From positions 1-64,000 of the forward strand of contig NZ_JAVDDU010000002.1 of NCBI RefSeq assembly GCF_030848505.1: DNA of 64,000 nucleotides, written 5' to 3'. Positions 7,191 to 38,039 of the stretch are shown here, piece by piece; the stretch's first letter is position 1; each line of letters begins with the position of its first letter. Source of the DNA: Marinimicrobium hydrolyticum (GTDB taxonomy: Bacteria > Pseudomonadota > Gammaproteobacteria > Pseudomonadales > Cellvibrionaceae). The notes below the pieces were generated by a model. The model had not been told where the DNA came from and did not search any database. It worked only from the letters and a program-made list of their open reading frames with translations. A program made the translations under genes and the position numbers.

Positions 7191-7613
7191 ATGCTCTGGA
7201 TCAAAGCCTTTCATCTCATCGCCATGGTGTGCTGGTTTGCCGCGCTTTTCTATCTACCAAGGCTGTTCGTCTACCACGCTATGAGTGAGGATCAGACAAG
7301 CCGGGACCGCTTCAAAACCATGGAACGCAAGCTATACCGGGGTATCGGCACACCCAGCATGCTTGCTACGCTGATTCTGGGTTTCTGGCTGGCGGGCGGC
7401 TATTGGGCCTACTATCAAGCCAGCGGTTGGTTCTGGGCTAAGATGGTGCTGGTAGCTGCCCTGGTGATCTACCATTTTATGTGCGGCTATTACGTGAAGC
7501 AATTTAGTAACGACAGGTGTCACAAGAGCCATGTGTACTTTCGCTGGTTCAACGAGGTTCCGGTACTGCCACTAGTAGCGATCGTGATATTGGCGGTGGT
7601 AAAGCCATTTTGA
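7191..7613 (+). CDS. hemJ: Protoporphyrinogen IX oxidase HemJ
   Basis: Membrane-bound heme-dependent enzyme that oxidises protoporphyrinogen IX to protoporphyrin IX, the penultimate step of heme synthesis. At 140 residues with about four transmembrane helices it fits HemJ. The conserved histidine in WIKAFHLIAMVCWFAALFY and the ERKLYRGIGTP loop are present. The gene is monocistronic or heads the short run hemJ-thiD-thiE-hemL. hemL lies about 1.7 kb downstream and belongs to the same pathway. Confidence 0.93.
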   Translation: MLWIKAFHLIAMVCWFAALFYLPRLFVYHAMSEDQTSRDRFKTMERKLYRGIGTPSMLATLILGFWLAGGYWAYYQASGWFWAKMVLVAALVIYHFMCGYYVKQFSNDRCHKSHVYFRWFNEVPVLPLVAIVILAVVKPF

Positions 7614-7692
7614 TCCATAAGCTGTGCTAGACTCGGCTCTCTGCAAGGTAAATGCAAAAGCTCATTGGTCGTCGGATGCGAGGGAAGCAAGA

Positions 7693-8529
7693 ATGCAACG
7701 CAACGCCCCAACACCGGTAGTTATGACTTTATCCAGCCACGATCCTTCTGGCTGCGTCGGTATTCAGGCCGACATCGAAACCAGTATCAGCCTGGGCTGC
7801 CACTGCACCCCCATTGTGACGGCCCTGTGTGCTCGCGACACGCGCGACATCAAAGATGTTATTGCGGTCGATACTGGCTTTTTGATTGAGCAAAGCCGCG
7901 CCATTCTAGAAGACATGCCCGTCAAGGCCATAAAACTGGATTATCTGGCCAATGTGCGCCAGGTGGAAGCGGTACACACCATCCTGAGAGACTACCCGAA
8001 TATTCCCGTCGTCCTCAACCCAGCCCGCTCCATCGCTAATATGGCGAGTCGCGAGGGCAGTGCGGTCCTCGAAGCCGCCAAACATCTACTGTTTCCCGCA
8101 ACTACCTTACTCTGCCCAGATATAGTGGAAGCTCATCAGATAGCCCAGCAAGGAGACACCATTGATGCCTGCGCTCAGGAAATCCTTGAGGCGGGTGGTG
8201 ACCACTTACTGATCAGTGGTACTCATCGCTGCCAAAAAAGCTATGAAAACAGCCTCTATAACTCACAAGGGCTGGTGCGTCGCTACACCTGGGAGCGATT
8301 AAGTGTCTTTAGCCATGGCGGTGGTGCCACTTTATCCGCCAGCATCGCGTGTTACTTGGGTCACGGATTGTTGCTCAGAGACGCAGTTCAACAGGGTCAA
8401 AATTTTGCTTGGCACAGCCTGGCCGCCAGCCGGCGCCTGGGCATGGGCCACGGCGTACCCAACCGTTTGTTTTGGGCCGACCGGAATACCGACGGCGGCC
8501 GCAGCCGCGGCTCGGGTGGCGGCTGCTGA
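7693..8529 (+). CDS. thiD: ThiD-like hydroxymethylpyrimidine (phosphate) kinase with altered active site
   Basis: Ribokinase-fold protein of thiamine synthesis, expected to phosphorylate HMP and HMP-P. It keeps SSHDPSG near the N-terminus, but the next residues read CVGIQAD where the family has GAGIQAD. The C-terminal anion-hole motif, normally GTGCT or GSGCT, reads HGGGATLSA, so the conserved cysteine is alanine. The ATG at 7693 has a GAGGGAAG ribosome site, and the frame is open further upstream. The last 15 residues are Gly/Arg/Ser-rich. thiE and hemL follow, the same order as in Pseudomonas. The family is sure; full catalytic activity is doubtful. Confidence 0.85.
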   Translation: MQRNAPTPVVMTLSSHDPSGCVGIQADIETSISLGCHCTPIVTALCARDTRDIKDVIAVDTGFLIEQSRAILEDMPVKAIKLDYLANVRQVEAVHTILRDYPNIPVVLNPARSIANMASREGSAVLEAAKHLLFPATTLLCPDIVEAHQIAQQGDTIDACAQEILEAGGDHLLISGTHRCQKSYENSLYNSQGLVRRYTWERLSVFSHGGGATLSASIACYLGHGLLLRDAVQQGQNFAWHSLAASRRLGMGHGVPNRLFWADRNTDGGRSRGSGGGC

Positions 8530-8646
8530 GCCCCGCCCCATTCGACGTAAATTAACGACGCCCCACCCCCCAACCCTTTCGCGACCTGAGCGCGCCCAAC
8601 GCTCAAAGAGGGTACACTGGGCGCTTTTCGCGCCCGTAGGTTGAGC

Positions 8647-9279
8647 ATGCTCTACGCCATCACTGACAGCCAGTTGTTGCCTGGCGAACACCTCTATGCC
8701 GCAGTCGCCGCCGCCTTGCGCGGGGGCTGCCGACGTGTCCAGTATCGGGACAAGTCGAGTGTCTCAAGCGTTCGGACCCATCAAGCCGCAACACTCCTGA
8801 CTCTTTGCTGCGAGCACGGGGCCGAGCTGATCATCAACGATGACGTGCGTTTGGCGCTCAACGTAGGCGCTCATGGCGTGCACCTGGGGCAGGAGGACAT
8901 GCCACTCGCCCAGGCGAGATCGCTTCTGGGGGCAGACGCCATCATCGGTGTTACCTGCCACGCCTCCCTGGATTTGGCCCGTTTGGCCGTGCAGGCCAGC
9001 GCCGACTATGTCGCCTTTGGCCGGTTTTTTCCTTCCAGCACTAAACCGGACGCTCCCCCCGCTCCGCTCAGCCTGCTCACTGACGCGCACCAGACTCTCG
9101 GCCTGCCCATCGTGGCCATTGGCGGTATAACTCTGGATAATGCGCACTCCGTACTGGCGAGTGGCGCGGACTGGCTGGCGGTGAGCCACAGCTTGTTTTC
9201 CGCCCCGGATATAGAAGCCCGCGCCCGGGCTTTTTTTGCCCTCGCCGACAACCGAATTTCGCAACCCAATAAGGATTGA
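8647..9279 (+). CDS. thiE: Thiamine phosphate synthase
   Basis: Joins HMP-pyrophosphate and thiazole phosphate to form thiamine phosphate in the cytoplasm. It is a TIM barrel with the family blocks YAITD at the start, [40 protein letters not shown] and AIGGI. The ATG at 8647 is preferred over the TTG two codons upstream. The 210-residue length is normal. It ends 2 bases before the hemL start, so the two are translationally linked. Confidence 0.95.
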
Positions 9280-20305: not shown

Positions 20306-21004
20306 ATGCCCCAGATACTACTTGCCGAAGATGACAGCCGCCTAGCCAAATTGGTGAAGTCTTACCTGGAAGCCAATGACTTTCAGGTAGACGTTGAGGA
20401 TAACGGCAACCGGGTAGCCGAGCAGGTACGCAACCAGAAACCCGATATGCTCATTCTGGACATTATGCTGCCTGGGAAAGACGGCCTAACACTTTGCCAA
20501 GAGTTGCGTCCTGAGTTCAAAGGCCCCATTTTAATGCTCACGGCGCGCAACGAGGACGCGGATCAGATTCTCGGGTTGGAGTTCGGTGCTGATGACTATG
20601 TCATCAAACCGGTTGAGCCCAGGATCTTGCTGGCACGTATCCGTGCCTTGCTGCGCCGGGTCGAACCGCGCACGGCACAACCGCGCCAGACACTGGAGTT
20701 TGGTCGACTGCGCATCGACGATGCGTCCCGCAGCGTGCATCTAGGCGAAACACCCATCAACCTTTCCAGCCATGAATTTGATCTTCTGTGGCTACTCGCC
20801 CAACGCGCGGGCGAAGTGGTCAAGCGCGACGTACTGTTTCAAGAGCTACACGGTCGCCCCTATGACGGACTGGATCGCACCATTGACGTGCGCGTGTCCC
20901 AGCTGAGAAAAAAACTTGGCGACAACACCGACAACCCGCAACGAATTAAAACCGTGTGGGGCAGAGGTTACCTGTTCATCGCCGATGCCTGGGGCGACTT
21001 TTGA
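20306..21004 (+). CDS. OmpR/RstA-family response regulator
   Basis: Two-component response regulator. The receiver domain has acidic D9 and D10, phospho-acceptor D52 in LILDIMLPG, the TAR switch block and the conserved lysine in YVIKPVEP. The C-terminal winged helix ends with VSQLRKKLGDN and KTVWGRGYLF. The sequence resembles RstA and Vibrio CarR/VprA. Its stop overlaps the kinase start (TTGA). The likely binding sites are the TTACA-N5-TTACA boxes upstream of mipA (inference). Confidence 0.93.
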   Translation: MPQILLAEDDSRLAKLVKSYLEANDFQVDVEDNGNRVAEQVRNQKPDMLILDIMLPGKDGLTLCQELRPEFKGPILMLTARNEDADQILGLEFGADDYVIKPVEPRILLARIRALLRRVEPRTAQPRQTLEFGRLRIDDASRSVHLGETPINLSSHEFDLLWLLAQRAGEVVKRDVLFQELHGRPYDGLDRTIDVRVSQLRKKLGDNTDNPQRIKTVWGRGYLFIADAWGDF

Positions 21005-22284
21005 AACGCGCCTTTCTTTCCCTCTATCTGCTGTTGGTGCTCTCGATTCTGGGTATGGGCTGGGGATTGGACCAGCTCTGGAATGCGTATAAACCGGCAC
21101 AACAAGCGTCCCTTCCCGGCCAACCGTTGTTGGAGCTCATGCAGTTGGCCGCGCAAGAGCGCGAGCTTGAACAAACTCAAGTGTTCGTCAACAACATCAA
21201 CGCGGCCGGCTTGGCTGAGTTGCGCCTCTTACCCTTGGACAACCTCACGGGCTCCACCGTTTTGGAGCGGCTTCACGCCGGTGAGAATGTCAGCTTTGAG
21301 AGCCGCGAGGGCAAGCGGTACCTGTACCAGAAACTTTCCGGCCAACCCTGGGTACTCGTAGCCGAGGAGGGCGAGCCCGAGGGTCGCTGGCTGGAAACTT
21401 TTTTGGCCGCCCTGTTTTACACGGCGCTGGCCATTGCCGTTTTCTTCTGGCTTTGGCCACTCACCCGAGACTTAGACAAACTGGAGAGGCACGCTCAAAA
21501 CCTCGGCACCGACCAAAACTACCCTGCTGTGACCGTACCCCACAGCTCAACCGCTCACAGCCTGGCCAAAGCATTCAACCGAATGACCACACGAATTCGC
21601 GAGCTGCTGCAAACACAAAAGGAAATGACCCACGCGGTTTCTCACGAATTGCGAACACCCCTTGCGCGCATGAAATTCGCGCTGGAAATGGCCGGCGAAT
21701 CCCGCAACCCGGATGATATTCACAGCAAGCTGGAAGGCATGCGCAATGACGTAGCTGAAATGGATCAGCTTATTAATCAGCTGCTAAATTACGCACGCTT
21801 TGAACAGCAACGTCCGGAATTGAATTACAAGGCGGGAGACATGCCCAGCTTGGCGGAAGAGATCGTTCGCCGCCTTACCGCCCATCTGGATGGGAATTCA
21901 ATGCACATTGATATTCAAGCGAATCTGCAACAGGACTTCGTATGCGATTGGCCGCTTATGGAACGCGCCTTTCTGAACCTAGTTCAGAACGCCCTGCACT
22001 ACAGCCGCGGTTGTGTTCACATTCGCCTGTTCAGCGACGCTGAGCAATTTCGGATCGAAGTGGAGGACGACGGCCCAGGGGTACCAGAGACAGAGCGGGA
22101 CCGAGTTTTCGAATCATTTGTGCGCCTGCGTCAGGAACCGGAAAAACACACCGCAGGCTTTGGTCTTGGCTTGGCCATTGTTCGCCAAGTTGCCCTGTGG
22201 CACAAAGGCGAAGCGCATGTGGAAAATTCCGCTCCTGGAGGCGCCCTCTTCGTAATTTGGTGGCCCAACCCCCTCAATAAATGA
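21001..22284 (+). CDS. RstB-like sensor histidine kinase
   Basis: Inner-membrane sensor kinase, 427 residues. A transmembrane helix lies at residues 4-20, a short periplasmic loop of about 110 residues follows, and a second helix lies near 135-155 (AALFYTALAIAVFFWLWPL). Then come a HAMP region, the H-box THAVSHELRTPLARMKF, the N-box NLVQNALHYS and G-boxes DDGPGVP and GFGLGLAI. The start is a TTG overlapping the regulator's TGA by 4 bases, which gives tight coupling; no good ATG exists. Its stimulus is unknown. Confidence 0.9.
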   Translation: MKRAFLSLYLLLVLSILGMGWGLDQLWNAYKPAQQASLPGQPLLELMQLAAQERELEQTQVFVNNINAAGLAELRLLPLDNLTGSTVLERLHAGENVSFESREGKRYLYQKLSGQPWVLVAEEGEPEGRWLETFLAALFYTALAIAVFFWLWPLTRDLDKLERHAQNLGTDQNYPAVTVPHSSTAHSLAKAFNRMTTRIRELLQTQKEMTHAVSHELRTPLARMKFALEMAGESRNPDDIHSKLEGMRNDVAEMDQLINQLLNYARFEQQRPELNYKAGDMPSLAEEIVRRLTAHLDGNSMHIDIQANLQQDFVCDWPLMERAFLNLVQNALHYSRGCVHIRLFSDAEQFRIEVEDDGPGVPETERDRVFESFVRLRQEPEKHTAGFGLGLAIVRQVALWHKGEAHVENSAPGGALFVIWWPNPLNK

Positions 22285-22523
22285 CTTAAGCCCGCATTTT
22301 ATTCTTCCGTTTAAGACGCTTTACTCCGCTTGCTTGCCTGCAATTCATTCTACGCTTCACCTCGTGTCGCAATCTCGCCTATTAAATTCGCGCGGCGGAA
22401 CCATTCAAAAAGCCCGTCGGTCTGAAACCTTAGGGCCTGCATGATGCAGCCATGTATAGACCCGACTATGGATACAGTGCACCGCCTGGAGGGCGGAGCT
22501 AAACGGACTCAGCGAGGTGTCAT

Positions 22524-23657
22524 ATGCGTTCTCTAAAAAGACTTCTGTTTCAATTGTTCTTTACCTTCTCCGTGGTGAGCCTAGCTGCTTGTGGTGGAAG
22601 CAGCAACGGTACACCCTTCACTGGCGGCACCAATCCCGGCGTCGACAATACCGGCGACAACAATGGCGATACCGGTGATACCGACGACACTGGTGATACC
22701 GGTGATACGGGTGACAACGGCAACGACGATAGCAATGGGGATGATGACGGCAACGGTGACGATGCCCAGCCGAGCGGTACCTTTAGCCTGGCCATCACCG
22801 ATGCGCCTATCGACCACGCCTCTCACGTATATGTCGCTTTTAGCGGTGTCACTCTGCATCCGGCCGAAGGTGATCCGGTAGAGTTCATGTTCGAAGAAAA
22901 CCGAACCATCGACCTTTTGGCTTTGCAGGGCACCCAATCCGAACACTTGCTCAACGAAGAGAACGTGCCCCCCGGCGACTATGAATCCATACACATCCAT
23001 GTAAACGCCAGTCACGATGGCGTGCTGGACTCCTACGTTGAGATGAATGACGGTACTCAGCTCGAACTCGGCCTGGAGGAAGAAAACCAGCTAAACATTA
23101 CGCAAGCGTTTACTGTGGTTGCCGATGAGCACACGGACTTCACCGTCGATTTGGACTTGCGCCGGTCACTGATACTTCCAGAAGGAGAAACTGACGCCCT
23201 CCTGCGGCCCAGCCTACGCTTGGTGCACACACAGCAAGCAGGCAGTATCGCTTGTACCGTTGACGATCTTCTAATCAGTACTGTGTGCGAAAACCCAGAT
23301 GTCAGCCTGGGGGCGGTGTACATTTACGAAGGAGCCGATGTGACGCCGATGGATGTTCGCAACGAAGATACCGATCCGCTCACCACGGCCCTTGTGGTTT
23401 TCGAGGACGACGTTTACTACTATGAAGCCGGCTTTCTGCCTGCAGGTGAGTACACGGTTGCTTACACCTGCGATGCTGTAAACGACGATCCAGAAGCCGC
23501 TGATGAGCTGGATTTTTACGGTGTTGGTAACGCTGAAGTAACCGCCGGTCAGGAAACCTTGTTCCACTTCGGCTCCGGCAGTTCGCTGTTTAATGGTGAC
23601 GGCGAAGAAGGGGGTGAAGAAGAAACTACCGGTGACGAAACTACCGAAGAAGCGTAA
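22524..23657 (+). CDS. DUF4382 domain lipoprotein with Asp/Gly/Thr-repeat linker
   Basis: Exported lipoprotein (lipobox SLAACGG, Cys at about residue 23). A low-complexity linker of GDTGDT-type repeats at about residues 45-80 is very acidic and could bind calcium (inference). The DUF4382 domain follows with SLAITDAPIDHASHVYVAF, IDLLALQGT and PPGDYESIHIHVNA. A second domain (VYIYEGADVTP, AGFLPAGEYTVAYTCDA) is also found in the two DUF4382 proteins at 32-35 kb. It ends in an acidic EEGGEEETT tail. It lies more than 9 kb from its paralogues, and I saw no copy of their operator upstream. Confidence 0.85.
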   Translation: MRSLKRLLFQLFFTFSVVSLAACGGSSNGTPFTGGTNPGVDNTGDNNGDTGDTDDTGDTGDTGDNGNDDSNGDDDGNGDDAQPSGTFSLAITDAPIDHASHVYVAFSGVTLHPAEGDPVEFMFEENRTIDLLALQGTQSEHLLNEENVPPGDYESIHIHVNASHDGVLDSYVEMNDGTQLELGLEEENQLNITQAFTVVADEHTDFTVDLDLRRSLILPEGETDALLRPSLRLVHTQQAGSIACTVDDLLISTVCENPDVSLGAVYIYEGADVTPMDVRNEDTDPLTTALVVFEDDVYYYEAGFLPAGEYTVAYTCDAVNDDPEAADELDFYGVGNAEVTAGQETLFHFGSGSSLFNGDGEEGGEEETTGDETTEEA

Positions 23658-30093: not shown

Positions 30094-31596
30094 TTAGTGG
30101 CGAGTCGTGGCACCGTGCCCAACCCCGCCAGGCCGCCCCGCATCAAGAAGCTCCTCACATTCGGGGACAAGAATGGGGCACTCCCCCAAGTCCGGTAGGT
30201 CGGGTATGTTGGGCAGGTTAAGGTGGTTGGCGGTAATACGGCGTTGGCCAGAGGCGCTGCCTGCCACTTTAACGATGTCACCTTCAGTCAGTTGACCAAT
30301 GAGCGCCGCCCCTACCGCACCCTGCAAATCCACAGACACGCCCATAACCACGATCTGATTCTGAGCCAAGTCGATTTGGCTCACAGGTCCTCGCAGATTC
30401 ACGCCAGTCTCAGCATCCAAACGTTTGACGCGAGTGATGATCAGTTGATCACCGGCGTAGCGGGCGAACACCTCCACGTAATCGCCCACTCGCAGTTCGT
30501 TCATATTGATCAGGCGGTTGGGGTTCGGCCCTAAGTCCTCAAACGCGGTAAGTCCGGTACTGGTGTAAGTGGTGCCCATAATCACCACCGTATTGGATTG
30601 TGGGTCCACGTCATCCACCAACGCACGAGCTCGGTATAGGCCCGGCAGCAGCAAGCGCACTTGCTGAGCCTGGAGCATTCCATTTTCCAGAGCGCCAGAC
30701 ACGGCCACCCGAACACCGGAGGTCAGTTGCTCCGCCGTACCGCCGGAGAGTTCGGCCTCCGAGGCATCGACGGTTTGCCCGTCCAGTTCAAACTGCCCGG
30801 TCGCTTGCACGTTCTTCGCCATACCCTCGAGGGAGATCCATGTGCCTTCCTCCAGAGCTGACTCGGCAGCGACAAAGCGCACCCGCATCGCGCTTAGAAC
30901 GTCTCCACTCCTTTCGCCCTGAACGCGTACCACTGCTCCATTACTTAAGTCGTCCAAACTGCCGTCTTCAAAAACGGCATCAGAGTATTGAACCTGCACG
31001 TCTCGCAACTGGAAGTGTGTGCTATCGCGGTTCAGGTTTTGAATTTCGCCACTCACTTCGTCGTCAGCGTTTTCGGCGGCGGCCGCTACGCGCGATGCGA
31101 CCAAACGGCCTTCCGAGTCCACAAAACCGCTGACATCAAGTCTGATTCCTTCACCCAGCTCTTCGAAGGTCAGGCCTGCGAAATGAGTGTCATCGTGAAC
31201 GACCAAAGTTTGCCCCATGACGGCCAATACTTTGCGGGTCGCCGTAGTATCCACGACTTCCGACACCGTACCCAGCAACGCACGGCTGTAGAGCACTCGC
31301 TGAGCCACTACTGTGCCGTGTTCATCGCGCTCCGCTTCCACCTGCACCACCATGCCCAGCTCGATAGCCTCTTCCACGACGGTTTCGCCGTTGGCGTGGA
31401 TCTGCGCGCTACTGATATCAATGCGCTCACCATTGACCAAGATGCTGCCGTAGGACGTGACACTTCCGCGCGAGGCTACCGGGCTGCCCGTGCCTTCGAT
31501 GCCGGCCGTCTGATCGTCCTCATTCGCCAGGCAGCCAATGAGCGTCAGACCCATTGTCAGGACGCAAACCTTGCGCCAGCAGTTGATCAGTTTCAT
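30094..31596 (-). CDS. DUF5666-repeat lipoprotein (copy A)
   Basis: Exported lipoprotein of 500 residues (lipobox LTLIGCLAN, Cys at about residue 22). GIEGTGSPVASRGSVTSYGSILVNGERID is the typical N-terminus of this family. Several DUF5666 beta-barrel repeats follow, each of the form VVVQVEAERDEHGTVVAQRV or VDDVDPQSNTVVIMGTTY. The C-terminal tail has two cysteines near the end. Its start overlaps the DUF6502 stop by 4 bases (ATGA), so both come from one operon. Copy B at 35616 has the same architecture. Function unknown; a surface-binding role is only a guess. Confidence 0.85.
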   Translation of the reverse strand: MKLINCWRKVCVLTMGLTLIGCLANEDDQTAGIEGTGSPVASRGSVTSYGSILVNGERIDISSAQIHANGETVVEEAIELGMVVQVEAERDEHGTVVAQRVLYSRALLGTVSEVVDTTATRKVLAVMGQTLVVHDDTHFAGLTFEELGEGIRLDVSGFVDSEGRLVASRVAAAAENADDEVSGEIQNLNRDSTHFQLRDVQVQYSDAVFEDGSLDDLSNGAVVRVQGERSGDVLSAMRVRFVAAESALEEGTWISLEGMAKNVQATGQFELDGQTVDASEAELSGGTAEQLTSGVRVAVSGALENGMLQAQQVRLLLPGLYRARALVDDVDPQSNTVVIMGTTYTSTGLTAFEDLGPNPNRLINMNELRVGDYVEVFARYAGDQLIITRVKRLDAETGVNLRGPVSQIDLAQNQIVVMGVSVDLQGAVGAALIGQLTEGDIVKVAGSASGQRRITANHLNLPNIPDLPDLGECPILVPECEELLDAGRPGGVGHGATTRH

Positions 31597-32435
31597 GAGT
31601 TGTCCTCTTGAGAGTCATCCGTGTCCGGATATTGAAAGTAGTAGAGGCCGATCCCGGCGCGAGCCTTACCAGCGCCCTCGCGTTCGGGCATGGATTCACG
31701 GTCGTACTCGGCCAACCAATCGTTGACCTTTAACAAAAACGTTTGCCCTTCTTCTGCGCTGCGCTGACGAATACGGTCCAGCAATTCAACGGGAATATGG
31801 CTGTAAGACACTGTGCGTTGAATGAAGGGGCCGGGTGCCGATTTGGAGATGTTGTGGTCCATGGTGCTCAGCAGATCCTCGGCTGCTGTACCAAAAATTC
31901 GCACGTTCTCTTGCATGTCCTCCATGGGAATGTAGCCGCGTGCTTTTAAGGCGACGCGATCGCCAGACTTGCTTACCGCCTGGATGCGCTCCAGTTCATC
32001 CAGCAGTGCGCGCACAGGCACGTCGGTGCTGTAGTCGCGTACCAGTTGCCCAAAGCTCGCCCCATTGCCCTGATCATCAATGATCAGCTCCGCTGGCTCA
32101 CCTTGTGCATTGTGAAAGCGCACATCATTCAACCAGCCGGTAATCACCCGGGCTGCCGCTGTCGGTCGCTCGCTTGCCCCGTCCGATAGCGGGTGGGGGC
32201 GCTCCAACAGCTTGGCGATATCTTTGCGATTGATCCCAGTCAGCACGGCCATGCGCGAAAGGCTCTGTTTACGCCCCGGCAGTGAAAAGTCCTCTCGCGC
32301 CACGTCCACATAGGCATGCCGGGCAATGTCCGCGAACAGCCGGTAGGACACGCCGTGGCGCATCAACAGGCGCACCATCGGCCTCAGCACTTTGTATAGG
32401 GCCCGAAAGAGGGCTTTTTGGGTTTCATCGCTCAT
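31593..32435 (-). CDS. DUF6502 family protein, putative autoregulatory DNA-binding protein (copy A)
   Basis: A 280-residue cytoplasmic protein. Residues 1-50 are conserved with copy B (LRPMVRLL.RHGVSYR.FADIARH.YVDVAR.DFSLPGRKQ). SLSRMAVLTGINRKDIAKLL at about residues 58-78 looks like a helix-turn-helix, so I infer a transcription regulator. The start has no ribosome site: a TATAAT box ends 6 bases before the ATG, with TTTACA 16 bases further upstream, so transcription should begin at or next to the ATG and the mRNA may be leaderless. The palindromic operator covers that -10 box. Confidence 0.8.
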   Translation of the reverse strand: MSDETQKALFRALYKVLRPMVRLLMRHGVSYRLFADIARHAYVDVAREDFSLPGRKQSLSRMAVLTGINRKDIAKLLERPHPLSDGASERPTAAARVITGWLNDVRFHNAQGEPAELIIDDQGNGASFGQLVRDYSTDVPVRALLDELERIQAVSKSGDRVALKARGYIPMEDMQENVRIFGTAAEDLLSTMDHNISKSAPGPFIQRTVSYSHIPVELLDRIRQRSAEEGQTFLLKVNDWLAEYDRESMPEREGAGKARAGIGLYYFQYPDTDDSQEDNS

Positions 32436-32436
32436 A

Positions 32437-32454
32437 TTGGGATTATAGTGTCAA
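32437..32454 (-). promoter_or_regulatory. Operator O1 over the DUF6502-A promoter
   Basis: Plus-strand sequence TTGGGATTATAGTGTCAA, an imperfect palindrome (TTG...CAA around ATTATAGT). On the minus strand it holds TATAAT, the -10 box of the DUF6502-A promoter. It differs from O2 and O3 by one base. Confidence 0.7.
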
Positions 32455-32469
32455 ATTGGCTTTTGTAAA
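32442..32469 (-). promoter_or_regulatory. Sigma70-type promoter of DUF6502-A
   Basis: Minus strand: TTTACA (32469-32464), 16-base spacer, TATAAT (32447-32442). The expected start point is at or next to the ATG at 32435. Confidence 0.6.
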
Positions 32470-32500
32470 TGTGAACCACCTCACTCTTTGCGCTCCATAT

Positions 32501-32518
32501 TTGGGACTATAGTGTCAA
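32501..32518 (+). promoter_or_regulatory. Operator O2 upstream of the double DUF4382 gene
   Basis: TTGGGACTATAGTGTCAA. ACTATAGT is a perfect 8-bp palindrome and the outer TTG/CAA also match. TATAGT inside it is a -10-like box, giving a 5' leader of about 81 bases before the ATG at 32601. The -35 region is weak. Confidence 0.7.
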
Positions 32519-32600
32519 AAAAGGAGATTAACTCGAATTCTCTTTGCTCAGGTAGGCGTAATCAGCGCCTTTAGACACACGCAACACAGTGAGGTGAATC

Positions 32601-34370
32601 ATGACCACATACCGAAAGTATCTGACCCAACTAGTCCTGGCGGCATTCTGCGCAGCGTTGGTGGCCTGTGGTGGCAGCGATCCCGCCGAAGAGAACCGGG
32701 GAAGCGACACAGACAGCAGCAACGACACAGGGAGTTTTACTCTTGACGTGACCGACGCCGCCGTGGATCTCGCCAGCCAAGTAGTGGTGGAGTTTTCCGG
32801 CGTATCCATTAAGCCTGCTGCCGGCGATGTCGTGACGTTCGAGTTTGATCAGGCCATGAGCATTGATTTACTCGCCCTGCAGGGTTCGGCGTCGCAGAAC
32901 CTGGTGGCCAATGCGGAAGTGCCCGCCGGGGACTATGAGTGGATTGAGCTGCACGTAAACGCTGAAAACGACGGCGTTTTGGATTCCTACGTGGAGCTTA
33001 AAACCGGGAATGTTTTGGAACTGAGCATTCCCAGCGGGGCCCAGAGTGGGTTGAGACTGGTCAGTGGCTTTACCGTCAACGCTGGGGGCCACGCCGACTT
33101 CACGGTTGATGTGGACTTGCGTAAGTCCATAATCCTGCCCCCCACTAACATTTTGGACGGTGCGCTATTCAGACCCGCCTTACGGTTGATAGACAACACG
33201 ACGTCCGGGACTGTGACTGGCGAGGTGGAGAGCGAGCTACTCACGGCTTACTGTGAAGATCCAGCCAATCAGGCCGGCGCGGTCTATGTGTTTAGCGGAG
33301 CCGATGCCAGTGTATCCGACGTACGCGGTAGCGACTCTGACCCCCTCACTACAGCCCTGGTAAATTATGAAGACGGCGAGTACCGCTACGAAGTGGGTTT
33401 TCTGGCTGAGGGCGAGTACACCCTGGCGTACACTTGTGACGCGTACAAGGACGACCCGGAACACGCCGACAGCCTGACCTTTGTGGGCGAAACCAACGTT
33501 TCTGTACAAGCCGATGCTGAGACTGAGCTTAATTTCACCAGCGAGAGTGAAGCTTCCAGCGGCACCATGAGCATGGACATCACCGACGCGCCGGTCGACA
33601 GCGCCAACAAGGTGGTTGTTCAATTTGACGGCGTGGTGGTCGGCAGTAGCTCCGACTCTGGCCGCAAAATCATCGAGTTTGATGAACCTGTAAGCTTGGA
33701 TCTGCTGACGTTGCAGGGTCAAAACAGCGCATCGCTCTTTACTCACGAAACCCTCGCCGCTGGCGTTTATGAGTACATTCAGTTGATGATCACCGCCGAA
33801 GCCAACGGTGAACTGACCTCCTACATTGAGTATGAAGACGGCACTCAGGCTGAGCTCTTTATCCCCAGCGGCGGGGCTTCGGGGTTGAAACTGCACGGTC
33901 CCTTCCACGTGGAAGCCGGGGAGAGTCATGAATTTGTGGTGGACTTTGATCTGCGCAAATCCGTGCATTATCACCACAGCATGCACTCCGCCATCCTGCG
34001 CCCCGCGTTGCGAATTGTAGATAAAGCCTCCGCCACACACATTCGCGGCGAAGTGGAAGAGAGCCGAATCACGGGCGCTCATTGCAGCACCCACGCCGCC
34101 GTGTACGTGTTCGAGGGCAGTGACGCCCAACCCGATGAACTGGGTAGCGACAACGAGCCCCTGACGTCTGCCCTGGTACAGGCCACCGCCAATGGCGGTT
34201 TTGAGTACGAGGTGGGCTTCCTGGCACCCGGTGACTACACCCTGGCCCTCACCTGCCAGGCAGACCTGGATGACCCGGAGTACGGTAACGATGGCATCGT
34301 CTTCGAACACAGCGCCAACGTGAGCCTGGAGGCACACATTGAGCTGGAACTGAATATCGGCTTGCAATAA
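32601..34370 (+). CDS. Lipoprotein with two DUF4382 modules
   Basis: Exported lipoprotein of 589 residues (lipobox AALVACGG). The first module (about residues 45-310) is very close to the protein at 34557: VVVEFSGVSIKPA, IDLLALQGSAS, LHVNAENDGVLDSYVEL, DLRKSIILPP, then YVFSGADASVSDVRGSD and EVGFLAEGEYTLAYTCDA. The second (about 318-589) repeats this plan in a more diverged, His-rich form (HYHHSMHS). So it is an internal duplication. It is controlled by operator O2, and a strong hairpin follows. Function unknown; the modules look like beta-sandwich binding domains (inference). Confidence 0.85.
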   Translation: MTTYRKYLTQLVLAAFCAALVACGGSDPAEENRGSDTDSSNDTGSFTLDVTDAAVDLASQVVVEFSGVSIKPAAGDVVTFEFDQAMSIDLLALQGSASQNLVANAEVPAGDYEWIELHVNAENDGVLDSYVELKTGNVLELSIPSGAQSGLRLVSGFTVNAGGHADFTVDVDLRKSIILPPTNILDGALFRPALRLIDNTTSGTVTGEVESELLTAYCEDPANQAGAVYVFSGADASVSDVRGSDSDPLTTALVNYEDGEYRYEVGFLAEGEYTLAYTCDAYKDDPEHADSLTFVGETNVSVQADAETELNFTSESEASSGTMSMDITDAPVDSANKVVVQFDGVVVGSSSDSGRKIIEFDEPVSLDLLTLQGQNSASLFTHETLAAGVYEYIQLMITAEANGELTSYIEYEDGTQAELFIPSGGASGLKLHGPFHVEAGESHEFVVDFDLRKSVHYHHSMHSAILRPALRIVDKASATHIRGEVEESRITGAHCSTHAAVYVFEGSDAQPDELGSDNEPLTSALVQATANGGFEYEVGFLAPGDYTLALTCQADLDDPEYGNDGIVFEHSANVSLEAHIELELNIGLQ

Positions 34371-34379
34371 TCGCTGACT

Positions 34380-34411
34380 GCACGCTGTGGCTCACTTGAG
34401 TCACAGCGTGC
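34380..34411 (+). terminator. Strong hairpin after the double DUF4382 gene
   Basis: GCACGCTGTG and CACAGCGTGC form a perfect 10-bp stem, with CTCA/TGAG continuing inside. There is no T run after it, so it may protect the mRNA 3' end rather than terminate on its own. Confidence 0.5.
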
Positions 34412-34440
34412 CATTAAACAATCCCTTACCCCGTTTTTGC

Positions 34441-34468
34441 TTTACAAGGGTTAATTTGGGACTATAGT
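34441..34468 (+). promoter_or_regulatory. Sigma70-type promoter of the second DUF4382 gene
   Basis: TTTACA at 34441-34446, 16-base spacer, TATAGT at 34463-34468. The same boxes and spacing are seen at the DUF6502-A promoter. The -10 box lies inside operator O3. Confidence 0.6.
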
Positions 34469-34473
34469 GTCAA
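34456..34473 (+). promoter_or_regulatory. Operator O3 upstream of the DUF4382 gene at 34557
   Basis: TTGGGACTATAGTGTCAA, identical to O2 over all 18 bases, in a different surrounding sequence. The leader from the predicted start to the ATG is about 82 bases, the same as for O2. Confidence 0.75.
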
Positions 34474-34556
34474 ATACAAGTGAAAAACGGTCTTCCACGT
34501 CCGGTGCAGGCGACACACTCACGGTCGACGAATCATCAATACAGAGGTACGGCATT

Positions 34557-35531
34557 ATGAAAATTATTCCTAAACACACCACCAAATTGTTACTGGCGGC
34601 CTCCATCGGAACCCTAGTCGCCTGTGGTGGCTCTACCAGCGGAAACGCCAGCGGCGAAACCGGCCATTTCAGTCTGGCCGTCACCGATGCCCCCATCGAT
34701 TCAGCCACCCACGTCGTGGTGGAGTTTACCGGGGTGTCCATCAAGCCCGCGGACGGCGAGGCCATTGTTTTTGAGTTTGATGAGCCCAAAAGCATTGACC
34801 TGCTGGCCCTTCAGGGCTCGGCCTCCGAAAGCCTTCTGACCAATGAAGAGGTCCCCGCTGGCCAGTACAACTGGATTCGGCTGCACGTGAATGCCGAGCA
34901 CGACGGCGTTTTGGATTCCTATATTGAGTTGGAAACGGGTAACCAGTTGGAGCTTCGAGTACCCAGTGGCAGCCAAAGCGGTCTGAAGCTAGTCAGCGGG
35001 TTCGCCGTCAATGCGGGCGCTAGTGCGGATTTCACCATCGATTTTGACTTGCGCAAGTCCATCGTCCTGCCGCCGGGGCTTAGCGGTGCCATGCTCAAAC
35101 CCGCGTTACGCTTGGTTGATAACACGGTATCCGGCAGCATTGCCGGCTCCGTAGACGCCGAATTAATCACCGCCCGGTGTGAAGATCCCGCCAACGAATC
35201 CGGCGCGGTGTACGTATTCAGCGGCGCCGATGCGAGCGTCAGTGATGTCAGCGGCTCGGACAATGATCCGTTGATAACCGCGCTGGTTAATCATGACGGG
35301 AACGAGTATCGGTACGAAGTAGGCTTTTTGGCTGAAGGCGATTACACCCTGTCCTACACCTGTGACGCCCGTCTGGACGACCCGGAAGCGGAAGATGACT
35401 TAACCTTCGTAGGCACCGCCAACGCTTCGGTAGAAGCGGGCGCAGAAACGGAACTGAACTTTACGGTAGAAAGTGAGGAGACTGAAGAAGACGAAGAAAC
35501 CGAAGAAGGTGACGAGTCTTCTGAAGAGTAA
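34557..35531 (+). CDS. DUF4382 domain lipoprotein with acidic tail
   Basis: Exported lipoprotein of 324 residues. The ATG at 34557 gives a signal peptide MKIIPKHTTKLLLAASIGTLVACGG with lipobox LVACGG; the frame is open 30 codons upstream. The DUF4382 domain (SLAVTDAPIDSATHVVVEFTG and following) and the C-terminal domain (YVFSGADASVSDVSGSD) closely match module 1 of the gene at 32601, so the two arose by recent duplication. The last 20 residues are almost all Glu, Asp, Thr and Ser. It is controlled by operator O3 and ends at a bidirectional terminator. Confidence 0.87.
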   Translation: MKIIPKHTTKLLLAASIGTLVACGGSTSGNASGETGHFSLAVTDAPIDSATHVVVEFTGVSIKPADGEAIVFEFDEPKSIDLLALQGSASESLLTNEEVPAGQYNWIRLHVNAEHDGVLDSYIELETGNQLELRVPSGSQSGLKLVSGFAVNAGASADFTIDFDLRKSIVLPPGLSGAMLKPALRLVDNTVSGSIAGSVDAELITARCEDPANESGAVYVFSGADASVSDVSGSDNDPLITALVNHDGNEYRYEVGFLAEGDYTLSYTCDARLDDPEAEDDLTFVGTANASVEAGAETELNFTVESEETEEDEETEEGDESSEE

Positions 35532-35562
35532 AACACAACGCACCGGCTCCGCCGGTAAGCCA

Positions 35563-35599
35563 TAAAAAAAGCCGCGGTGATTTCATCGCGGCTTTTTTT
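35563..35599. terminator. Bidirectional terminator between convergent DUF4382 and DUF5666 genes
   Basis: GCCGCG and CGCGGC pair, with an inner TGA/TCA, flanked by seven A and seven T residues, so it can stop transcription from both sides. Confidence 0.9.
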
Positions 35600-35615
35600 A
35601 TGGGTGTAAAAGGTT

Positions 35616-37136
35616 TTAGAAGCGGAAGGTGGGCGGCTCCATACCATCCCACTCAAGACGGCTGGAGGTCAGTTCCCTCGGTGGCGCACAGCCCAGTCCC
35701 GGCGGGAAACATCCAGACAAACCGGGAACATCCAAGATATTCAGGACCTCGGCACTGATCTCACGGGAGCCCGTCAAGGTGCCCTCTACCGTGACCATAT
35801 CTCCCAAACTCAGGTTCGGAATCATTTCAGCCCCAAGATCTTCACCCAGGTTCACCCACACGTTTTTCACCATAATTTGATTATCCGCCTGGTTGATCTC
35901 CGTTACTGGACCACGAAGAGTGACGACGCCGGAATCACCATCAATACGTTTGATGCGTGTGGCCAAAACCTGCTCGCCCAAGTCTCGCGCGAACAATTCC
36001 ACTTGGTCGCCGACGCGGATTTCGGTCATGCCAATCAAACGATTGGGAGAGGGCGTTCGATCCTCAAAAGCCGTTAAGGAAGTTGCTACGTAGGTAAGCC
36101 CCATGACCACAACTTCACCCGTGGCGGGATTGATATCTTCCACCGTGCCGACCACCCGCTCAACACCGGGCAACACCAATCGCAATTCTTCAGCCTTCAG
36201 CTCACTGCCTTCAATCCGACCCTTGACCATAACCCGGATGCCATTCGCCAATTGATCTAGCTCGCCGCCGGAGATGCTGGCGTCCTCTGCATTCACGGAC
36301 ACACCGTTCAAGCGGAAGTTGGCGGCGGATTGATAACCCCGAACCACTCCTTCCAGAGAAACGCGTGTACCATCGGGCATGGATGCGGCATCCTGATCAC
36401 GGAGGGTGACGCGCTCGGCCACGAACGAATCCCCATTCTTGGCACCGCGCACCGACACCCTTTGACCCTCAGCCAAGGTATCCGCGCTCACACCAACGAA
36501 GACAGCCTGCGCGTAGTCCACACTCAGGCTACCCAGCTGGAAAGTCGCGGCGCTGGCGTTAAGCCCCTGCACGTCCGCATTGACTTCACCCATGGCATTC
36601 GTCGCGGCCTGGGCCACCCTGGTGGCCGTAACGCGGCCTTCGGCGTCAACGAAGCCACTGACGTCCAGAGTCACGCCCTTATCCAATTCTTCGAAAGCAA
36701 TCCCCGCAAAGTGCGTGTCATCGTGCACGATTAAGGTTTGCCCGAGGACCTTCAATTCTTTATGGGTACTGCCGACATGAATGACCTCGCTGACCGGACC
36801 CTGCAAATTCCGGTTATAGCGGACGTTGAGCACGTTGACTGAACCACGTCTATCCCGCTCCGCCTCAATGTATACATTCATGCCCAGTTTAATGGCATCC
36901 TCCGTCGCCGACTCGTCATTAACCTGAATCGCCGCGCCACCGATCTCTACGCGCTGCCCATTCACAATCACACTACCGTAAGCAGTGACCGTTCCCTGGG
37001 TGTTTTCACTGGTGGCGGGCGCACCTGTGCCTTCGATTCCCGCCACATAGGTATCGCTTTCCGTCAAGCAACCGCTCAGCGCCATTGCCAGCGCCAACAT
37101 AAGCGGCAAAGAATTTCTGGGCGCGAATAAACTCAT
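35616..37136 (-). CDS. DUF5666-repeat lipoprotein (copy B)
   Basis: Exported lipoprotein of 506 residues (lipobox ALSGCLT, Cys at about residue 23). It has the same plan as copy A: GIEGTGAP, TVTAYGSVIVNGQRVEIGGA, then repeated DUF5666 units such as VLGQTLIVHDDTHFAGIAFEELD, which is nearly identical in copy A. Two short repeats near the C-terminus read VTLRGPVTEINQADNQIMV. Its start overlaps the DUF6502-B stop by 4 bases. The copies are full-length and both look functional. Function unknown. Confidence 0.85.
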   Translation of the reverse strand: MSLFAPRNSLPLMLALAMALSGCLTESDTYVAGIEGTGAPATSENTQGTVTAYGSVIVNGQRVEIGGAAIQVNDESATEDAIKLGMNVYIEAERDRRGSVNVLNVRYNRNLQGPVSEVIHVGSTHKELKVLGQTLIVHDDTHFAGIAFEELDKGVTLDVSGFVDAEGRVTATRVAQAATNAMGEVNADVQGLNASAATFQLGSLSVDYAQAVFVGVSADTLAEGQRVSVRGAKNGDSFVAERVTLRDQDAASMPDGTRVSLEGVVRGYQSAANFRLNGVSVNAEDASISGGELDQLANGIRVMVKGRIEGSELKAEELRLVLPGVERVVGTVEDINPATGEVVVMGLTYVATSLTAFEDRTPSPNRLIGMTEIRVGDQVELFARDLGEQVLATRIKRIDGDSGVVTLRGPVTEINQADNQIMVKNVWVNLGEDLGAEMIPNLSLGDMVTVEGTLTGSREISAEVLNILDVPGLSGCFPPGLGCAPPRELTSSRLEWDGMEPPTFRF

Positions 37137-37960
37137 GACTGAACCTCGTGCGTATCGTCCGCATGTTCAAAATAGTAAAGCCCGATGCCCGCCCGATAGC
37201 CTGCGGCGGAATCCGTTTCCGGTGCCTCGCATTCCGCCAACCACTCGTTCACTTTCAGTAGAAATTCCTGTCCTTCGGCGGCGCTGCGCCTGCGAATGGT
37301 GTCCAGTAGCTCGGGGGGAATGTTGCGATAAGCGACCGTACGCTGAATAAAAGGGCCGGGCTGCTCTTTAGCAATATTATGATCCATAGTCGCCATCAAA
37401 TCTGCGGCCGCCGTTCCGAAAATGCGAATATTTTCCTGCATATCCTCCACGGGGATATAACCTCGCGCCGCCAAGGTTACTTGGTCGCCATCCTTATTCA
37501 CCGCTGCGACACGTTCCAGCTCATCCAGCAAGGCGCGCACAGGTACGTCCCGACTGTATTGGCGCACCAGTTCGCTGAAGCTCGGCGCGCCGTCGGCCGC
37601 TTCCACCGGCAAGGAGGCCGGGCTGCCATCGGCGCTGTGAAAACGCACATCGTTAATCCAACCGGTAATGACCCGAGCGGCAGGCGTGGGCTTCTCCGGC
37701 GCGGCACCGGAGAGCGGGTGCGGCCGATCCTGCAATTTGGCGATGTCTTTGCGGTTGATGCCGGTGAGCACGGCCATGCGCGACAAACTCTGCTTGCGAC
37801 CCGGTAGAGAAAAATCCGAACGCGCCACGTCCACGTATACATGACGCGCGATATCCGCAAAAAATCGATACGACACTCCGTGGCGCAAAAGAAGGCGCAC
37901 CATAGGCCTGAGAGTTCTATAAAGGGCTCTCGTAAAAACAGTTTGAGTCGTATCCGTCAT
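37133..37960 (-). CDS. DUF6502 family protein, putative regulator (copy B)
   Basis: A 275-residue paralogue of copy A. The N-terminal 80 residues, including the helix-turn-helix-like SLSRMAVLTGINRKDIAKL, are almost unchanged between copies; the C-terminal third differs more. As in copy A there is no ribosome site: TATACT ends 7 bases before the ATG, so the message may be leaderless. Its operator-like site O5 is more diverged than the others. It forms an operon with DUF5666 copy B. Confidence 0.8.
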   Translation of the reverse strand: MTDTTQTVFTRALYRTLRPMVRLLLRHGVSYRFFADIARHVYVDVARSDFSLPGRKQSLSRMAVLTGINRKDIAKLQDRPHPLSGAAPEKPTPAARVITGWINDVRFHSADGSPASLPVEAADGAPSFSELVRQYSRDVPVRALLDELERVAAVNKDGDQVTLAARGYIPVEDMQENIRIFGTAAADLMATMDHNIAKEQPGPFIQRTVAYRNIPPELLDTIRRRSAAEGQEFLLKVNEWLAECEAPETDSAAGYRAGIGLYYFEHADDTHEVQS

Positions 37961-37964
37961 GGTG

Positions 37965-37980
37965 TTGAGTATACCGTCAA
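37965..37980 (-). promoter_or_regulatory. Operator-like site O5 over the DUF6502-B promoter
   Basis: TTGAGTATACCGTCAA keeps the outer TTGA/GTCAA arms and a central GTATAC palindrome but is 2 bases shorter than O1-O4. On the minus strand it holds TATACT, a -10-like box, 7 bases before the DUF6502-B ATG. Confidence 0.45.
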
Positions 37981-38021
37981 TTTCTTGTGCAAAATATACA
38001 CACTCTTTTAATTAATTAAAT

Positions 38022-38039
38022 TTGGGACTATAATGTCAA
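38022..38039 (+). promoter_or_regulatory. Operator O4 facing a gene-less region
   Basis: TTGGGACTATAATGTCAA, one base from O2/O3. TATAAT gives a perfect -10 box on the plus strand. No DUF4382 gene follows; only about 170 bases and then a terminator. Confidence 0.65.

Follow-up and report, generated by a model that had tools for sequence, protein, structure and literature searches.

A recurrent palindromic site at DUF6502 promoters of Marinimicrobium hydrolyticum and its relatives points to a candidate family of self-controlling transcription regulators

The locus described here lies within a 64,000-nt stretch of the genome of Marinimicrobium hydrolyticum (contig NZ_JAVDDU010000002.1, positions 1 to 64,000); this whole stretch is termed the window, and coordinates count from its first letter. 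The locus contains two copies of a gene encoding a DUF6502 protein, each overlapping a DUF5666 lipoprotein-like gene, together with two DUF4382 lipoprotein-like genes and several copies of an 18-bp palindromic site, which is proposed to be the operator through which DUF6502 regulates itself and its neighbours. The genes are as follows.

30094..31596, minus strand: DUF5666 lipoprotein-like gene a (PF18914, E = 5.4e-35); 4-bp overlap (ATGA) with DUF6502 copy a
31593..32435, minus strand: DUF6502 copy a, 280 aa, proposed regulator (PF20112, E = 9.4e-68)
32601..34370, plus strand: DUF4382 lipoprotein-like gene a, with two DUF4382 stretches (PF14321, E = 4.9e-61); divergent from DUF6502 copy a
34557..35531, plus strand: DUF4382 lipoprotein-like gene b (PF14321, E = 3.4e-37)
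35616..37136, minus strand: DUF5666 lipoprotein-like gene b (PF18914, E = 7.7e-31); 4-bp overlap (ATGA) with DUF6502 copy b
37133..37960, minus strand: DUF6502 copy b, 275 aa, 72% identity to copy a (PF20112, E = 1.1e-63)

An earlier reading of this stretch, made from the letters alone (the sequence-only reading), had named these three families, and two genes of each were confirmed at the locus with Pfam. The scores were 228.4 and 215 bits for DUF6502 (gathering cut-off 27), 119.9 and 106.6 bits for DUF5666 (cut-off 27) and 205.3 and 128.1 bits for DUF4382 (cut-off 25). The sequence GIEGTG is present in both DUF5666 proteins of the window, in that of gene a after a lipobox-like stretch. The putative regulatory sites are listed below.

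32437..32454, minus strand: operator O1 of DUF6502 copy a, reading TTGACACTATAATCCCAA; relatives keep its place relative to the ATG
32470..32485, no strand assigned: CRP-like site, minus strand AGTGAGGTGGTTCACA, one mismatch to TGTGA-N6-TCACA
32501..32518, plus strand: operator O2, covering the -10-like TATAGT of the divergent DUF4382 gene
34456..34473, plus strand: third operator; covers a -10-like TATAGT at 34463-34468 that belongs to the second DUF4382 gene
37963..37980, minus strand: O1 of DUF6502 copy b in diverged form, TTGACGGTATACTCAACA; 2 nt before the ATG and 59 bp from O2
38022..38039, no strand assigned: counterpart of O2 at DUF6502 copy b, with a one-base change; not followed by a DUF4382 gene on the plus strand

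The motif TTGGGACTATAGTGTCAA, allowed up to three mismatches, was found in the window at 32437, 32501, 34456 and 38022, the same four positions that the sequence-only reading had given. This is far above chance (0.04 matches expected; maximum of 1 across 100 shuffles), and the four sites were the sole matches in the whole 3.99 Mb genome, in which a reversed control pattern matched once. The diverged fifth copy, previously put near 37965, was placed at 37963-37980 from its location and a comparison of the two loci, with no mismatch search involved. The palindromic core was also borne out by the letters: ACTATAGT is a palindrome, and the outer TTG/CAA pair as well.

At copy a, a single T separates O1 from the ATG at 32435, and the TATAAT within O1 forms a -10-like box 6 nt before that ATG. 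The transcript of copy a is probably leaderless, because a TATAAT at this distance from the start codon leaves no room for a ribosome-binding site. The centres of O1 and O2 are 64 bp apart. The promoter at 34456 has a -35-like TTTACA at 34441-34446, 16 bp upstream of its TATAGT. The claim that each copy covers a -10-like box held for O1 of copy a, O2 and the 34456 site; the orphan transcript postulated at 38022 is not needed, because this site occupies the place of the upstream operator of DUF6502 copy b and looks like that operator rather than an orphan promoter.

In the bacterial family to which the strain belongs, DUF6502 was present in 28 of 144 genomes. Nine of the 144 had the motif in its exact form (position 7 being C or T), with all exact sites at the DUF6502/DUF4382 locus, and a further 19 motif-matching genomes gave matches with one or two mismatches only. 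The sequence-only reading had staked its case on the motif not being absent beside these gene families in relatives; it recurs there in the nine genomes. DUF4382 is divergent from DUF6502 in all nine and in one more genome with a more diverged site (G062). Eleven other loci from the family were examined, in which DUF5666 lies downstream of DUF6502 (for L087 this was seen in a separate analysis) and which had no divergent DUF4382 and no motif at up to three mismatches. A search of genome contigs with one protein gave its sole match in Marinimicrobium agarilyticum.

The O1-O2 centre spacing could be measured at nine promoters and was 64 bp in four, 61 bp in two, 73 bp in two and 59 bp in one (copy b of the window). 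In four genomes (G055 and G140-G142) the DUF6502-proximal site keeps TTGAC...GTCCCA, starting with TTGACG or TTGACA, and has lost the central TATA, while a CATAAT box overlaps the end of the site. The outer half-sites have outlasted the -10 box in these genomes, which is the behaviour expected of a site for a bound protein.

DUF6502 was further found in 34 of 194 genomes of the order and in 99 of 369 genomes of the class (98 of these over the Pfam cut-off). A symmetric palindrome, TTGGGA-N6-TCCCAA, emerged from reading the upstream regions of these genes. It was counted in the 120 bp upstream of 170 non-redundant DUF6502 genes, a subset of the family, order and class hits whose loci were retrieved. 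Identical cores and frames lacking a start had been removed from this set, and every hit kept spanned at least 180 profile positions and began no later than profile position 15. Each gene was taken to start at the closest ATG preceding the profile match (GTG or TTG otherwise), and the palindrome played no part in this choice. With up to one mismatch it was present in 43 of the 170 genes (mean of dinucleotide shuffles 0.1) and with up to two in 62 (shuffle mean 1.4). Spacing was strict: exact TGGGA-Nx-TCCCA was counted 39 times with N6, eight times with N5 and not at all with N4, N7 or N8. An earlier set of 89 DUF6502 genes gave 37 with the palindrome at up to two mismatches, compared with six of 253 other open reading frames (ORFs); four of these six were O2 seen from DUF4382 and the other two lay in DUF6502 loci (L128 and L123).

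In 36 DUF6502 genes the palindrome ends 0-3 nt before the ATG. TANNNT occupies the -10 place in 29 of these 36 sites (counted by eye), and in 19 of them TTGAC begins 15 or 16 nt upstream, which is the -35 distance for a -10 box inside the palindrome. A search of other genomes for the motif had been suggested as a check; taken beyond the family, it yielded a symmetric version that recurs throughout the class at promoters of DUF6502 and of DUF5666 genes. The form found in the window, TTGACA-CTATAA-TCCCAA, is most simply read as a diverged version of this class-wide operator. The gene arrangement recurs as well. DUF6502 and the following gene overlap by exactly 4 bp in 67 of 165 class loci. A GxxGTG-type motif was found near the N-terminus in 139 of 160 ORFs downstream of DUF6502 versus 30 of 797 other ORFs, and its strict GIxGTG-type form in 96 of the 160 versus none of the 797; a GIxGTG-type exported or lipoprotein-like partner accompanies DUF6502 also where the remainder of the protein was not called DUF5666.

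The exact palindrome was detected in 36 of the 99 class genomes with DUF6502 and in 25 of the 270 without it (Fisher test, 5e-9), while the reversed-pattern control was flat (10 of 99 and 26 of 270; p = 0.85). From 38 of these 61 palindrome-matching genomes 52 sites were examined, the other 23 genomes (ten with DUF6502) having no examined site, and distances were measured to the starts of open frames, not to ATGs. Among the matches listed, 20 of the 39 exact sites in DUF6502-positive genomes were at DUF5666 (15) or DUF6502 (five) frames, versus one of 13 in DUF6502-negative genomes; one of the 15 (G389, L240) is the operator of DUF6502 itself. Pfam confirmed DUF5666 for seven of the target genes and named three others differently. 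Among 26 DUF5666 genes that lie apart from DUF6502, either on a different contig or no less than roughly 9 kb away (although draft contigs do not prove distance), 17 had the palindrome with up to one mismatch within 100 bp upstream; with the eight genes found through the motif excluded, nine of 18 had it. A model of this DUF5666 subtype, built from nine operator-near proteins and therefore biased towards that subtype, matched 60 of the 369 class genomes at E <= 1e-30, of which 59 have DUF6502, G513 being the exception. Exact palindromes were also seen before genes for a PF09826 beta-propeller lipoprotein-like protein, a CarboxypepD_reg-domain lipoprotein-like protein and a YgaP-like membrane protein (L265, L269 and L264), which are possible further members of the regulon.

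DUF4382 had been proposed as a member of the regulon. This stood within the clade of the window and hardly beyond it, and DUF4382 as a general target was unsupported. A divergent DUF4382 gene was present in 11 of the 170 records (many of which had flanks of 1.5 kb only), ten of them in the window's clade; in the eleventh, L093, a divergent DUF5666 was called at the same distance. The genome has a third DUF4382 lipoprotein-like gene, at 22524-23657 of the window, which is without the operator motif.

The AlphaFold model of DUF6502 copy a (predicted local distance difference test score 87.5, predicted template-modelling score 0.70) has helix-turn-helix (HTH) helices at residues 59-66 and 70-78, in agreement with the HTH previously placed at about residues 58-78. 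The middle of the model is winged-helix-like, and two long helices are found in its C-terminal part. In an alignment of 68 sequences, G67 and R70 of the HTH are invariant and S60, R61, T66 and K71 nearly so; weak matches to MarR, TrmB, HTH_29 and Crp HTH domains were obtained for two or three of the 68 members each. In VIA comparisons, region 30-84 aligned with the N-terminal regions of TetR-family proteins (Z 5.7-5.9) and region 88-168 with winged helices, e.g. that of a CRP-family protein (Z 6.0). The DUF6502 profile gave no credible match to the sequences of solved structures (best E 0.11), and PHROGs, PADLOC and NCBIfam gave no match for the DUF6502 proteins scanned. The sequence-only reading knew of no published role for these families, and no paper naming DUF6502 or PF20112 was found in the literature searched; in search listings on CRP with looping and on leaderless autorepressors, this system did not come up either.

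HetR (Peptidase_S48, PF03574; PDB entries 4j00, 4izz, 3qod, 4hri and 4yrv) is the heterocyst regulator of cyanobacteria, the group from which it is known. It was the best Foldseek match (E 3.7e-3 and 2.9e-2) of two DUF6502 AlphaFold models, which share alignment members and are not independent. In the VIA lists no rows other than the HetR entries exceeded 200 aligned residues, and the best Z scores of these entries were 7.3 (rank 2) and 8.1 (rank 1). Superposition gave a template-modelling score of about 0.3 and a full-chain root-mean-square deviation of more than 10 Å, and structural scores of this level are also reached by unrelated proteins. PF03574 did not match either DUF6502 protein of the window at E <= 1, within the HMMER filters; hhalign gave no signal for 68 DUF6502 proteins against one HetR sequence, and probabilities below 1% for 169 DUF6502 proteins against two (whole and N-terminal, local and global). 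HetR homologues were sought in plasmids, phages and viral contigs and none was found there. A HetR study (PMC4192349) describes the protein as binding palindromic DNA with GGG/CCC half-sites, as requiring GGG-N5-CCC and as binding upstream of its own gene in vitro; the genes at which it is described there are mainly ones upregulated in heterocysts. The half-sites of DUF6502 are alike but their spacing differs, being GGG-N8-CCC (39 exact) or GGG-N7-CCC (eight exact) among the 170 regions, and the resemblance in fold is unaccompanied by detected sequence similarity. The model comparison suggests HetR as a lead for DUF6502, not as a family in which to place it.

A site for a further regulator may lie between the two operators. 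The CRP consensus is TGTGA-N6-TCACA, and the genome encodes CRP (NCBIfam NF008732, 372.9 bits, cut-off 266). In four of the nine promoters, namely those with the 64-bp spacing, which include that of copy a, a CRP-like site with no or one mismatch is located at the exact midpoint of O1 and O2. Over the 170 upstream regions, a CRP-like site was found without mismatch in six and with up to one in 18, the corresponding means being 0.0 and 0.5 in shuffles that preserve single-base composition only. The site is centred 42 bp before the ATG in copy a of the window, L070, L071 and L097 and 44 bp before it in L073, and it can be compared with the class II position of CRP (centre near -41.5) if the ATG is taken as the start site.

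We consider it likely that DUF6502 is an HTH factor which binds the 18-bp palindrome and, by covering the -10 box, represses its own gene together with lipoprotein genes. An autorepressor is most likely because the site covers the -10 box of DUF6502 promoters that are often otherwise good and recurs at DUF5666 and DUF4382 promoters. The recurrent site, the association across genomes and the predicted HTH support the earlier proposal that DUF6502 regulates its own operon. We infer from these sequences that DUF6502 would bind TTGGGA-N6-TCCCAA across the class and TTGACA-CTATAA-TCCCAA in the window's clade, and that the bound protein would act by repression rather than activation, through blockage of the -10 box. 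It would control its own, presumably leaderless, transcript, including the overlapping lipoprotein gene (mostly DUF5666), as well as remote DUF5666 lipoprotein genes in other genomes and the divergent DUF4382 lipoprotein gene in the window's clade. In the part of that clade where the two operators flank a midway CRP-like site, a single CRP dimer in class II placement could serve both divergent promoters, and both could be shut by a pair of DUF6502 dimers with about six helical turns between them.

Several observations weigh against this proposal. The palindrome is absent at up to two mismatches from 108 of the 170 DUF6502 upstream regions, which implies divergence within the DUF6502 family, either of the operators or of the mode of regulation. 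Some of the 108 carry GTGGGA-N5-TCCCAC instead, and one family-level subclade shows a different promoter element (by eye). No visible difference was noted by eye between the recognition helix of the TTGACA clade and that of several TTGGG relatives. Among the matches listed, 19 of the 39 exact sites in DUF6502-positive genomes have no DUF6502 or DUF5666 frame in range by the automatic rule applied, although two of them, both in G361, are located within an open DUF5666 frame (151 and 220 nt into it), probably ahead of the true start of that gene. Nine of the 26 non-adjacent DUF5666 genes are without the operator, and one genome (G513, 81% complete) has the operator on a DUF5666 gene, with DUF6502 not detected. 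For the CRP part, the site is poor in five of the nine promoters, with two mismatches in G055 and three to five in G141, G142, G059 and copy b of the window.

The G513 site and the many DUF6502 genes without a site would suit a scheme in which the palindrome is the operator of another regulator, DUF6502 and DUF5666 are mere targets and the function of DUF6502 is a different one; autoregulation is, moreover, not proved by the presence of an operator at the promoter of a gene. We regard this as unlikely, given the enrichment of the exact palindrome in DUF6502-positive genomes with a flat control, the presence of DUF6502 in all but one of the 60 genomes with the companion DUF5666 subtype, the conserved predicted HTH and the fixed distance of the site from the DUF6502 start codon in 36 genes. 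Alternatively, DUF6502 could bind the site and activate, aiding RNA polymerase, perhaps together with CRP. CRP-like sites do adjoin the operators in L093 and L097 as well as in some members of the window's clade, and the study cited above (PMC4192349) describes HetR, which is nearest to DUF6502 in fold, mainly at genes with raised expression in heterocysts. An activator sitting on the -10 box itself would, however, be in the way of the polymerase; for 19 of the 36 start-proximal sites, TTGAC is already present at a suitable -35 distance, and the promoter at 34456 already has TTTACA-N16-TATAGT, so that activation appears quite unlikely.

It is highly improbable that the element acts in translational control, as a hairpin of the RNA close to the start codon, or is merely conserved promoter sequence. 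A symmetric sequence of the L168 type does fold (-7.5 kcal/mol, z -1.8), but the two forms tested from the window's clade do not form the stem (0 and -3.1 kcal/mol), and forms of the window type, whose half-sites do not match each other, are conserved in nine genomes. A -10 box within the palindrome implies that transcription starts after it, and about 80 nt separate O2 and the site at 34456 from the genes that they precede. If the element were promoter sequence only, the conserved TTGGGA/TCCCAA and the strict N6/N5 spacing would be left unexplained.

The proposed autorepression by DUF6502 has parallels in known systems. Autorepressors of the phage CI, TetR and antitoxin types are HTH proteins with a palindromic operator over their own promoter. 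DUF6502 resembles them in the own-promoter palindrome, the HTH and the divergent or co-transcribed targets. It differs from them in its length of about 280 aa, winged-helix-like middle, two long C-terminal helices and lipoprotein-like partners, and the DUF6502 proteins of the window have no Pfam match to these regulators (nor has the copy scanned an NCBIfam match). In the CytR and gal systems of Escherichia coli, CRP and a local repressor meet at one promoter region. The window is similar in having a CRP-like site and two repressor-like sites in one intergenic region, whereas here a single CRP-like site lies midway and each of the divergent genes has an operator on its -10-like box.

A more elaborate version of the proposal is tentative and, on balance, doubtful. 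DUF6502 might be a HetR-like regulator family outside cyanobacteria that acts on GGG/CCC palindromes within a conserved feedback module of two genes, the other being that of the GIxGTG lipoprotein, and a loop over a CRP-induced bend might silence both divergent promoters. The overlapping exported lipoprotein, or the envelope state that it reports, would then feed back on DUF6502, and in part of the window's clade the midway CRP would bend the DNA such that one DUF6502 loop shuts both promoters.

Taken as autorepression by DUF6502, the evidence points to an unrecognised family of self-controlling transcription regulators and gives a testable function to a protein family found in 99 of the 369 sampled genomes of the class. 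The analysis supplies a candidate operator, a promoter anatomy and a likely target list, and it ties DUF6502 to two more uncharacterised lipoprotein families; the sites are recognisable enough for the regulon to be read from genomes. The resemblance to HetR, if true, would bear on the origin of that developmental regulator.

Some minor features were recorded at individual loci. In a DUF6502 subclade without the palindrome (L018-L020, L023, L025, L028, L030, L031 and L033), a promoter-like element close to TTTCTGNTANATTTCGC is shared, located by eye a few tens of base pairs before the DUF6502 start. The GTGGGA-N5-TCCCAC form was seen in L111, L112, L115 and L161 (one family) as two copies 40-53 bp apart, which lie between DUF6502 and a divergent gene resembling, by eye, an alpha/beta hydrolase. 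In L077 (G142, 7285-8877), DUF6502 and part of the next gene form one open frame of 530 aa, which represents either a fusion or a sequencing frameshift. Genes for a response regulator and a histidine kinase, both named by eye, precede the DUF4382 gene at 22524-23657 (20306-23657 of the window as a whole), and a similar kinase is found about 2 kb from the DUF4382/DUF6502 locus of G062 (L069).

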